NCBI GenBank assembly: GCA_040755715.1
Contig: JBFLXN010000041.1
Span: 1-18,356, forward strand
From: JBFLXN01 sp040755715 [NCBI: Candidatus Edwardsbacteria bacterium]
GTDB lineage: Bacteria > Edwardsbacteria > AC1 > JBFLXN01
DNA: 18,356 nt
Direction of reading: 5' to 3'
Shown here: in pieces, positions 287-18,356 of the stretch
Numbering within the stretch: position 1 is the stretch's first letter
Layout of the letters: each line of letters starts with the position of its first letter
Notes under the pieces: generated by a model
Told to the model about the DNA's origin: nothing
Database searches by the model: none
Seen by the model: the letters and a program-made list of their open reading frames with translations, nothing else
Made by a program: the position numbers and the translations under genes

Positions 287-350
287 TTACGCAGATTACG
301 CAGAAAAAACACAGATTACGCTGATTCACATTCTGCGGAATCTTAAAAAT
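287..350. repeat. Copy of the GCAGATTACGCAG dispersed repeat
   Basis: Positions 294-326 match 12454-12486, inside the membrane glycosyltransferase gene, at 30 of 33 bases. A third, more diverged copy lies at 14571-14667. Repeats of this look, with CGCAGATTACGCAG arms and CTGCGG near the other end, are scattered palindromic elements. Confidence 0.7.
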
Positions 351-503: not shown

Positions 504-651
504 GTGCCGATGTCGCTTTTTTATTGCTCTTTTTTCTCTAAGCCTCTTTTTTATCAAGACTTATATTAAAAAAATCTCCTCTTCGCCTCACCCTTCCATC
601 TCCTAAAGCTTTAGGAGAAGGACAGAGGGAGAGGTTAAAGGGGATATCTCG

Positions 652-11950: not shown

Positions 11951-13564
11951 ATGAAGCGTCTTTTTATCTTCCTTTTCATCTTAATTCTTTTTGTTCAGTT
12001 AATCCTTTTGTTTCTTTTTGTTCACTTCCGCTTTATTGGTGCTGACGAAGGGCTTCTTTTGGAAGCATCCTGGCAAGTGAGTAAGGGTAGAATTCCTTAC
12101 ATTGATTTTTTCTATGTCCAGATGCCGCTTTTGCCCTATATTTATGCAGGTCTTCTGAAATTAAATATTTCTTCATTTCATACTTTGAGGCTCTTTCTCA
12201 TTTTTTTAAGTTTCGGCTTAGGTTTGGTGATTATGGTTTGTGCCTATAGAAATACCTCTCCCTTTTTCCCTCCCCCACAGAGGGAGGGAGAGGTGGCCCT
12301 CAGTGTAATTTTTCTTTATGCCTTTAATGGATATGTTCTTACTTGTCATTCACTAATCAAGGTTTTTGCCTGGACTGACCTTTTTGCCTTCTTATGTTTT
12401 TTTCTTCTTAACTTGAATTTTTTAGAGATTTCTGAAAAAGTCCAGAAATCGCCGATTACGCAGAAAAAGCACAGATTACACAGATTAAAAGCTTTGAAAA
12501 TATTTACTCTGCGCAATCCCTTAGAAATCCGTGTAATCTGCGGACGAGTTTTCCTGGCGGGAATTTTTTTAGGGATAGCGCTCAACATCAGAGCGACAGT
12601 CCTTCCCTTGGTTCCTCTTTTTGTAATCTGGAATGCAGTGGGCTCTCATTCTTTTAAACAATTTCTCTTTAGTTCTGCAATATTTATCTTAGGGGTTCTC
12701 GTTGTATCTCCTTTAAGTCTATATCTTTTTTTCCGTGACCCAGAGGCATTTGTAATGAACAATTTAATATTTCATCTAATCTGGTATCCTGTTCAGGAGC
12801 CAAAGAGTCTTTTCTGGCAAAAGATTACTGCTATTTCTCGCTATTTGCTACCGCATGCACAAAACTTTATCCTAACACTTCTGGCATTCTGGGGGGTAAA
12901 AATGAGTTTCTTTGATAGGAAATCCTGGAGTGGCAAGAGAAGAGAAGACCGAACTGCATTGATTGCATTTTCCTTTGCAGGTGTGATTGTGATTACTTAT
13001 CTGTTTGCGACGCCGATAATAACCCAATATTTTGTGCAAATAATACCATATTGCTTAATAATGACGATTCCTGCGTTAAAGCGAGTCTTTGAAAAGCAGG
13101 ATTTTCTTTGGTTAAATAAGAAGTTATTTTTAATTGTGTTTGCCGCCCTTTACTTCATAATGCTCTTTCCATATATTCTGATTTTTATTGGAAGTGTTAG
13201 AGAGAAAGATAAGATGTGGGAGATAAAAGAAGTTATGGCGGTAGCAAGGACAGTTCAACAAGTTTCTGCTCCTCAAGACTCAGTTCTCTCTTGGTGGCCG
13301 GGATATGTCTTTTTCGCCAACCGTCCGCCTGTCTCCCATTCAGAATTCTGTGGTTATCAATTTACAAATAGACTGAAAGAAGAGGACTATTCACGATATC
13401 ATATTCTTAACGATAAGCAAATTACTGAAATAATTTCACAGCGAAGGGCAAAAGTATTGGTTTTTGATGAGGAGATGACAGTCAAATTTGCCGATGAGAT
13501 CGATCAGTCTTATAGATTTTATAAGGAAGTCGGGGAACAACTAATATATTTACGAAGAGAGTGA
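11951..13564 (+). CDS. ArnT/PMT-type (GT39/GT83-like) membrane glycosyltransferase with two in-frame repeat inserts
   Basis: A 537-residue multi-pass membrane protein. It starts with a hydrophobic helix, then the family's first periplasmic loop with the catalytic-type acidic pair in FIGADEGLLL (Asp32, Glu33) and KGRIPYIDFFYVQMPLLPY. Such enzymes move sugars from polyprenyl-phosphate donors to lipid A, glycans or proteins outside the inner membrane. The C-terminal soluble part includes SVLSWWPGYVFFANRPP. Residues about 102-115 and 168-199 are encoded by dispersed palindromic repeats and both fall in hydrophilic stretches between predicted membrane helices. The frame is intact through both. The gene starts 25 nt after the preceding glycosyltransferase with a poor ribosome binding site. 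Function after the insertions is plausible but unproven. Confidence 0.85.
   Translation: MKRLFIFLFILILFVQLILLFLFVHFRFIGADEGLLLEASWQVSKGRIPYIDFFYVQMPLLPYIYAGLLKLNISSFHTLRLFLIFLSFGLGLVIMVCAYRNTSPFFPPPQREGEVALSVIFLYAFNGYVLTCHSLIKVFAWTDLFAFLCFFLLNLNFLEISEKVQKSPITQKKHRLHRLKALKIFTLRNPLEIRVICGRVFLAGIFLGIALNIRATVLPLVPLFVIWNAVGSHSFKQFLFSSAIFILGVLVVSPLSLYLFFRDPEAFVMNNLIFHLIWYPVQEPKSLFWQKITAISRYLLPHAQNFILTLLAFWGVKMSFFDRKSWSGKRREDRTALIAFSFAGVIVITYLFATPIITQYFVQIIPYCLIMTIPALKRVFEKQDFLWLNKKLFLIVFAALYFIMLFPYILIFIGSVREKDKMWEIKEVMAVARTVQQVSAPQDSVLSWWPGYVFFANRPPVSHSEFCGYQFTNRLKEEDYSRYHILNDKQITEIISQRRAKVLVFDEEMTVKFADEIDQSYRFYKEVGEQLIYLRRE
12254..12295. repeat. 42-bp palindromic repeat inserted in frame in the membrane glycosyltransferase gene
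   Basis: ACCTCTCCC at the left and GGGAGGGAGAGGT at the right make an inverted repeat of exactly 14 codons (TSPFFPPPQREGEV, residues 102-115). It resembles the CCTCACCC...GGGAGAGG element at about 586-636. It joins helix-like VIMVCAYRN to ALSVIFLYAF without breaking the frame. Confidence 0.7.
12452..12547. repeat. 96-bp GCAGATTACGCAG-type repeat inserted in frame in the membrane glycosyltransferase gene
   Basis: The first part matches the intergenic copy at 294-326 at 30 of 33 bases. Its right end (AATCCGTGTAATCTGCGG) is the imperfect reverse complement of its left end. It contributes 32 codons (residues 168-199), rich in Lys, Arg and His, with no stop, placed between two membrane helices. 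Confidence 0.8.
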
Positions 13565-13573
13565 TTCTAATCT

Positions 13574-14449
13574 ATGCTTAATCTTTCAGTTATTATTGTC
13601 ACCTGGCAAAGTGAGAAATATATAAAGCCCTGCCTGCGTTCGGCAGAACGAGAATTGAATAGTCTTAATGGTGAAATCATTGTAGTGGACAATCACTCAT
13701 CTGATGGAAGTGTAGAGGCTCTTAGGAAAGATTTCCCTACTGTCCAGATAGTAGAGAATTCTCAAAATCTTGGCTTTGCTAAAGCGGTCAATCAAGGCTT
13801 AAGGCTAGCTAAAGGCAAATATATTTTTCTTCTCAATCCGGATACAATTATATTACCCGGGGCTCTTTTGGAAATGATTAATTTTTTAGAAAGTCATCCG
13901 ACAGTGGGGATATTGGGTCCTCAATTACTTAATTCTGATGGAACTATTCAGTCTTCCTGTCGTGAATTTCCTTCTTATCAAAATCTAATCTGGGAAATTT
14001 TAGGATTGGCACGCCTTTTTCCAAAACACAAAATTTTTGGTCGCTGGAAGATGAGTTATTTTTCTCATAATGAATTGAGAGAAGTAGACCAACCCATGGG
14101 TTCTGCCTTAATGGTGAGGAAAGATGTGGTAGAGCAAATAGGAGTGATGGATGAGCGATTTTCAATGTTTTTTAATGAGGTTGATTGGTGTTATCGGATG
14201 AAGGAGATGGGCTGGAAGATTTATTTTCTACCCCAAGCCAAGATAATTCATCATTTGGGTGCCAGCACCTGCCAAAGCAAAATCAGGATGATTCTTTTTC
14301 TACACTATAATCTTTTGCGATTTCTGGCTAAATATGAAAGAAGACCGTTAGGGTTTTTGCCACTGACGGCTTTGGCTACTTTATTATTATTTGTAACTAT
14401 TATTAGAATTTGTTTTAATCTCATATTTGATAGGAGTCACAACCTTTAG
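13574..14449 (+). CDS. GT2-family glycosyltransferase (rhamnosyltransferase-like)
   Basis: A 291-residue inverting GT-A enzyme. LSVIIVTW opens the nucleotide-binding fold. VVDNHSSDGS (Asp39), LGFAKAVNQG and LLNPDT (the DXD-like position, Asp90) follow, then GSALMVRKDV and the catalytic-base region FFNEVDWCYRMKEMGW (Glu202, Asp204, Arg208). A C-terminal hydrophobic segment near residues 262-285 suggests membrane association. It begins 9 nt after the membrane glycosyltransferase stop with AGAGAG upstream, so it belongs to the same rightward operon. The protein stops soon after the hydrophobic segment, where repeat-rich sequence begins. The family is sure; the sugar is not. Confidence 0.92.
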   Translation: MLNLSVIIVTWQSEKYIKPCLRSAERELNSLNGEIIVVDNHSSDGSVEALRKDFPTVQIVENSQNLGFAKAVNQGLRLAKGKYIFLLNPDTIILPGALLEMINFLESHPTVGILGPQLLNSDGTIQSSCREFPSYQNLIWEILGLARLFPKHKIFGRWKMSYFSHNELREVDQPMGSALMVRKDVVEQIGVMDERFSMFFNEVDWCYRMKEMGWKIYFLPQAKIIHHLGASTCQSKIRMILFLHYNLLRFLAKYERRPLGFLPLTALATLLLFVTIIRICFNLIFDRSHNL

Positions 14450-14570
14450 GTAAACCCCCGCACCCCCCACAGGGGGCAGGACTTTTGTGGGAAACAGAAT
14501 TTTTGCACCCTTCATCCACGTCTACATGACGGAACCTTCTGGGTGCGGGGTAAAGAGAGCTCTCTGAGTA

Positions 14571-14667
14571 TGGGGATTACGCAGATTTATAGCGGATTAT
14601 GCAGAGTAAGTATTTTCAAAGGTTTTAATCTAGGTAATCTGTGGTTCTTTTGCGTAATCAGCGTCTT
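14571..14667. repeat. Third copy of the GCAGATTACGCAG dispersed repeat
   Basis: GATTACGCAGATT at the left and TAATCTGTGG...GCGTAATCAGCG at the right form imperfect inverted arms. Sequence and layout resemble the copies at 287-350 and 12452-12547. Confidence 0.65.
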
Positions 14668-18070: not shown

Positions 18071-18090
18071 AACACACATCCTATAAGACT

Positions 18091-18226
18091 CACCGCGAAG
18101 ATGCAGAGACCATAGAGGAATAATCTCATTGGAAATTGCAAAATTAGCAATTAGTCCCGATAAATAATCGGGAATAGTTTTGCATTGATAATTTTGAAAT
18201 GAATTTCTCCGCGTCTCTGCGGTGAA
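18091..18226. repeat. MITE-like nested palindrome inserted between the M16 gene and the right-end leader
   Basis: Outer arms starting CACCGCGAAGATGCAGAG and, reversed, CACCGCAGAGACGCGGAG match at 14 of 18 bases. Inside lies a perfect CCCGAT-AAATA-ATCGGG hairpin (18156-18172). The right arm ends three bases before the TATAAT of the right-end leader. Confidence 0.8.
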
Positions 18227-18229
18227 CAT

Positions 18230-18356
18230 TATAATAGTTACTGGTGAAAAATAGAGACTTCAATATAACTGGTTCCTGATAAGGGAAGCCAAAGTTTTTG
18301 CTCTTTGACATTTTCTATTCTTATTTTCTTTTTCCTTTGCGAGAACGATAAATTCC
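18230..18356 (+). repeat. Right copy of 127-bp terminal inverted repeat; outward-reading rRNA-type leader
   Basis: This is the mirror of 1-127. It begins with TATAAT (18230-18235) and carries the boxA-like TGCTCTTTGACA at 18299-18310. Unlike the left copy, the -35 position (18207-18212) reads CTCCGC inside a dispersed repeat, so no consensus -35 box remains. An rRNA gene is expected just beyond the window edge. Confidence 0.85.

Follow-up and report, generated by a model that had tools for sequence, protein, structure and literature searches.

The window, meaning the whole 18,356-nucleotide stretch of DNA that was analyzed, carries an intact ORF of 537 codons whose frame stays open across two repeat segments, referred to here as A and B (Table 1). 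The initial annotation had described two unrelated palindromic segments lying in frame in one membrane glycosyltransferase gene, and this description holds. The assignment of the gene, a probable one, comes from its family. Compared with Pfam, the window protein gives no match at an E-value of 0.001 and nothing meaningful at an E-value of 10, and NCBIfam and PDB chains, searched with the same protein, gave no match. PMT_2 (PF13231) is matched by two of the four homologs that were scanned, and a profile of the family finds a weak match in the PDB to the protein O-mannosyltransferase TMEM260 (E 0.0044), with hits to unrelated proteins setting in at E 0.018. P62 and R214 do not vary across 29 aligned glycosyltransferase sequences, and D32-E33-G34, a candidate for the acidic motif after TM1, is nearly invariant; the window protein keeps these residues of the catalytic loop and of the family. 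The best identity of the window protein to the aligned homologs is ~34%, and a single-sequence AlphaFold model of it was too poor for use (pLDDT 44.5). The neighboring M16 peptidase is closest, at 54% identity, to proteins of a Candidatus Edwardsbacteria MAG and an uncultured-bacterium MAG (14 loci found). The ends of the contig (1-127 and 18230-18356) are 127-nt inverted repeats that are 98% complementary, either a true inverted repeat or an effect of assembly.

Table 1. Features of the window, with positions counted from its first nucleotide
Feature	Position	Strand	Basis
Membrane glycosyltransferase gene (GT-C, PMT_2-like), carries both repeats	11951..13564	+	ORF, homolog Pfam matches, conserved residues
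Repeat A, CCTCTCCC-type palindrome in frame, codons 102-115, TM2-TM3 loop, net gain 8 residues	12254..12295	.	Hairpin, homologs
Repeat B, GATTACRCA-type palindrome in frame, codons 167-198, ~32 extra residues	12450..12544	.	Copies, homologs, shuffles
Intergenic inverted copy of B	14575..14663	-	83% over 89 nt; score 103; hairpin z -3.9
Partial intergenic copy of B (left arm)	290..326	+	Direct, 89% over 37 nt; local score 54
Intergenic hairpin laid out like repeat A, kinship at chance level	586..636	.	Hairpin z -4.6

The unchanged protein sequence found no homologs of the glycosyltransferase in sets of 14, 10 (the same 10 genomes, searched twice) and 9 genomes, and one weak match in a set of 39; it found no homolog in plasmids and none in the genome contigs collection. 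Once segments A and B were removed from the query, homologs appeared in 26 of 386 genomes, with several of the matches short and weak. When the unchanged protein was compared with relatives of the best-matching genome, homologs were found in 26 of 288 genomes (E 1e-10). From 56 hits, 31 proteins (E < 1e-8, >400 residues) were aligned, and the other 25, which were weaker, shorter or duplicates, were left out. No close relative with an empty insertion site was found among these homologs. A check set in advance, for homologs with conserved residues at both segments, was run on the 31 proteins and gave no refutation of the insertions.

Repeat B, whose codons read SPITQKKHRLHRLKALKIFTLRNPLEIRVICG, is in frame in the window gene and absent from all 31 homologs, as had been proposed for its ~32 residues. 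Between anchor residues 150 and 204 there are 53 residues in the window protein and 14-21 in the homologs (median 18). Without the 32 codons of B the window protein would have 21, which fits the loop length of the homologs and argues that B is a clean insertion. HMMER matches of many homologs in the 26 matched genomes are split at the edges of B, with the first part ending at ~151-161 and the second beginning in most cases at 198-202, and in others at 192 or 246. Further copies of B are present within the contig. Compared with the rest of the window, B scores at most 103, a value reached by none of 200 dinucleotide shuffles (mean 25.2, maximum 34), and both intergenic relatives that the initial annotation had pointed to, one inverted and one partial, are confirmed. 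The frame of the inverted copy that corresponds to the one read in the gene holds a stop. Read directly from the sequence, just one of the six frames of the 9-base unit GATTACACA contains a stop, so copies of the B type are often open.

Repeat A, whose codons read TSPFFPPPQREGEV, forms a 41-bp hairpin (-25.7 kcal/mol, z -3.3) that is matched in stability by none of 200 shuffles. Between anchor residues 97 and 120 the window protein has 22 residues, compared with 13-14 in 30 of the 31 homologs and 27 in the remaining one (L098). When its 14 codons are taken away, 8 residues are left, fewer than in any of the 31. The gain relative to the homologs is therefore 8 residues and not the 14 first supposed, which suggests that about six native residues gave way to A or that a deletion accompanied it; the in-frame position and the longer loop stand. 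The proposed copy of A at 586-636 did not hold up: the best score of A against the rest of the window is 24, the shuffle mean is 22.4 and 49 of 200 shuffles score as high, so the link is a likeness of layout only. A search of Rfam gave no match. The membership of A in a mobile family is putative, since the search patterns came from A and the rest of the case is its layout. Hydropathy predicts that loop A joins TM2 to TM3 and that loop B joins TM4 to TM5, in agreement with the annotated loop positions. By the same simple prediction, both loops would be cytoplasmic if the charged N-terminus is inside. These sites are compatible with the suggestion in the initial annotation that selection may tolerate such repeats in loops only.

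Other short-unit repeats occur in the window. The intergenic DNA at 260-690 holds several side by side, among them GATTACGCA (290-326), AACCC/AATAAACC (~365-437), CTTAATCCAC (~455-505) and two hairpins (586-636 and 645-689). Repeat-like arms are also seen in intergenic DNA at 18090-18230 (GCGAAGATGCAGAGACC with CCGCGTCTCTGCGG, not picked out by local alignment) and at 14447-14556 (CCCCGCACCCCCC with GGGTGCGGGG).

Both repeat types are found in other genomes. With up to 2 mismatches allowed, 74 of 288 genomes contain the B unit CGCAGATTACRCAGATTA, and one of them (G124) has 72+111 matches and 0 in its control; lone matches in a genome may be due to chance, since the control too gives 1-2 matches in some. 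A close variant of the unit is present in 7 of 10 Edwardsbacteria-group genomes (control 0). Palindromes of the CCTCTCCC type are present in 59 of 288 genomes. Two examples have counts of 125 compared with 2 and 82 compared with 3 in the reversed control, and a few genomes fall below the control (G473, 5 and 22; G213, 0 and 9; G185, 4 and 7). A 15-kb contig of genome G089 (C24, in and around L107) has at least 11 B units, and ten IMG/VR contig stretches (L229-L238) match a 25-base B pattern exactly, one of them (L238) four times.

Across 130 loci, most of them chosen for their repeats, there are 121 distinct B elements, of which 19 fall within an ORF and 102 in the spaces between ORFs. Among 34 rows of ORFs spanning B units, five rows from three genes were taken as real: three from L204 and one each from L109 and L199. 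The others, being single units, low-complexity sequence or open frames of high G+C content, were judged by eye to be likely chance. Family matches back the three genes, which lie in other genomes: L204 (three places) and L109, the latter cut by a contig end, are N6_N4_Mtase DNA-methyltransferase genes, and L199 is a GT4-like glycosyltransferase gene. The B family is therefore present in several unrelated genes of other genomes. Apart from L199 itself, 290 genomes yielded one homolog, which is 17 residues shorter at the insert, split over two gaps.

The methyltransferase of L204 was aligned with 19 homologs, some of which end early. Its first loop has 42 residues, compared with 12-38 in 18 of the 19 homologs and 42 in L210; its second has 38, compared with 10-31 in 18 and 78 in L225; and its third has 30, compared with 0-19 in 18 and 33, of unrelated sequence, in L207. 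These lengths show that loops 1 and 3 vary on their own. The length of the second loop of L225 is due to a pair of CCCTCACCCC...CCCTCTCCCAGAAGGAGAGGG palindromes in frame, and CCTCTCCC-type palindromes are found in loop 1 of L209 and L210. Both repeat types of the window gene thus reach the same loops of another gene elsewhere.

What do these observations say about the window gene? Most likely, A and B are palindromic repeats of a short, interspersed kind. They would have entered, in frame, two putatively cytoplasmic loops that tolerate changes in length, in a glycosyltransferase that still works. B would be a GATTACRCA-type element inserted without loss of native sequence, and A would be a CCTCTCCC-type palindrome that took the place of some native residues or arrived with a deletion. 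Both would be translated as extra loop sequence of the glycosyltransferase.

It is possible, but unlikely, that B alone was inserted, and that A is native loop sequence that turned C/T- and G/A-rich and forms a hairpin by chance. The chance-level score against its sole candidate copy would fit this, as would the small net gain and a loop that, minus 14 codons, is shorter than in every homolog. Against it, the 41-bp palindrome is near-perfect and more stable than all of its shuffles, and its outer arms are the same as those of the palindromes that exceed their controls so strongly in the two genomes cited above. Palindromes of this type are, moreover, in frame in methyltransferase homologs. There is a smaller chance that the repeats are kept for a function, with the basic peptide of B anchoring a cytoplasmic loop or the A hairpin acting in the mRNA. 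Indeed, B makes its loop basic (11 K+R at residues 156-201, compared with a homolog mean of 2.5), and A is a strong RNA hairpin. Against this, B is in none of the homologs examined, a similar copy is intergenic with a stop in the corresponding frame, and there is no sign of selection on the peptides; the insertions are presumably neutral. An assembly join at a repeat, or a gene in decay, is highly improbable despite the metagenome-like contig with its terminal inverted repeats, because the sequences on either side of B align, in order, with one and the same set of homologous genes, the 537 codons have no stop or frameshift and the family residues are kept. Three further ideas were rejected: phase variation by tandem repeats, because the repeats are single-copy; an RNA family, because there is no Rfam match; and a chimeric join, because both halves match the same homologs.

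The preferred reading, that A and B are inserted repeats, raises the question of which protein might move them. PDDEXK_3 is the commonest Pfam family among 111 ORFs adjoining B elements (five members; the next families have three), and the three PDDEXK_3 ORFs scanned against NCBIfam are TIGR04256, GxxExxY. In the loci examined, phmmer finds eight GxxExxY ORFs. B units flank five of them on both sides (L037, L024, L194, L204 and L109), two at one end (L119 and L030) and one, from a locus that was not chosen for its repeats, at neither (L001). Within 100 repeat-chosen loci, with orientation left free, B units stand at both ends of 5 of 7 GxxExxY ORFs and of 8 of 762 other ORFs (Fisher p 1e-8), a comparison of genes inside such loci only. 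Five of these eight other ORFs come from L198 and L199, both in genome G113, where B units lie between many neighboring genes.

The GxxExxY ORF both starts and stops inside the arms in L109 and L204, and only starts there in L024 and L119. In L109 and L204 the arm-encoded ends read NPQITQINAD or NPRISQIDAD at one end and NLRESVTSAD or NLRKSAQSAD at the other. The copies inside the methyltransferase genes read PQITQMNADEE...NLRKSVQSAD and PQMTQMTTDKRNLRESVKSAD, that is, both GxxExxY ends without the core. In the genomes of L204 and L109, the GxxExxY gene directly adjoins the methyltransferase gene. A nuclease-coding GxxExxY element was not seen among the ORFs of the window.

GxxExxY genes are also found away from B arms. 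Eight plasmid records were chosen by their GxxExxY protein alone, and GATTACRCA arms are present in none of the eight. Other inverted repeats bracket three of these genes, with scores of 45 (L243), 36 (L244) and 43 (L246); 0, 1 and 0 of 200 shuffles, respectively, score as high. Among 379 control places, five reach a score of 36 and none reaches 43. The other five plasmid genes have bracket scores of 22-24, within the range of their own shuffles. The bracketed genes come from Bacteroides finegoldii, Bernardetia and Sphingomonas, and their units are CACAGAGGACRCAGAGG, AACACAGAGA and TTCACGCGAAG, respectively. One GxxExxY relative was found in viral contigs.

Taken together, the plasmid brackets, the B arms and the methyltransferase copies support the view that some palindromic elements form a nuclease-coding class and have given rise to short derivatives; their movement is putative. 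The short copies may derive from nuclease-coding elements. Specifically, B-type repeats could have arisen from elements that code for a GxxExxY PD-(D/E)XK protein between their arms, with the short forms being internal-deletion derivatives; this is a tentative proposal that we consider somewhat less than evenly probable. A broader version, to which we give the same guarded credence, short of an even chance, casts GxxExxY proteins, a PD-(D/E)XK-like family, as the enzymes that mobilize short-unit palindromes over a wide range, with GATTACRCA and no fewer than two further units among them. In this version the short palindromes in intergenic DNA and within proteins, those of the window glycosyltransferase included, would be internal-deletion forms of such elements, and translation of the methyltransferase copies would join the first and last coding peptides of the element.

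What are the implications of these findings? First, the presence of two unrelated repeats in one gene, and of the same types in methyltransferase loops elsewhere, points to a general route by which proteins acquire loop segments. Second, the arms around GxxExxY genes would offer a testable candidate for the mover of such repeats. If the link to the nuclease is true, the finding goes beyond another protein-coding palindromic element. A literature search by title and abstract, covering the letters of the repeats, GxxExxY with its accessions, and the phenomenon, returned nothing on these two families in coding sequence.

There are parallels with several known systems. In REP/RAYT systems, short palindromes are tied to a gene for a protein that is thought to move them. 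The likeness here lies in short palindromes with an associated gene, in this case GxxExxY (PDDEXK_3, TIGR04256); the difference is that in two copies the ORF starts and ends inside the arms. The enterobacterial RU-1 to RU-3/MITE-like repeats, as described in PMC2759123, are 103-168 bp long and enter genes with an open frame. Like the window repeats, they are small, lie inside annotated genes and leave a repeat peptide that is kept; unlike them, they belong to enterobacteria and have a different length, a comparison made by description and not by sequence. The closest match in kind is to the Rickettsia palindromic elements (RPEs), a likeness that had been proposed for the window repeats and that the account in PMC10969869 supports. 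According to that account, RPEs were described by Ogata et al. in 2000 and 2002, are ~150 bp long, and in R. conorii nearly half of them lie in ORFs as in-frame fusions; among the references of PMC10969869 is a 2002 paper whose title presents protein-coding palindromes as a feature unique to Rickettsia. In both cases there are short palindromes of several families, found between genes and in frame in unrelated genes. Compared by description, the window repeats have other units, are shorter (42 and 96 bp) and come from uncultured bacteria, and the B type occurs around GxxExxY genes. Hence, repeat B is a protein-coding palindromic element of the kind typified by RPEs, repeat A is a putative one, and the coding copies in methyltransferases and glycosyltransferases extend a phenomenon known from Rickettsia to other repeats and other bacteria.
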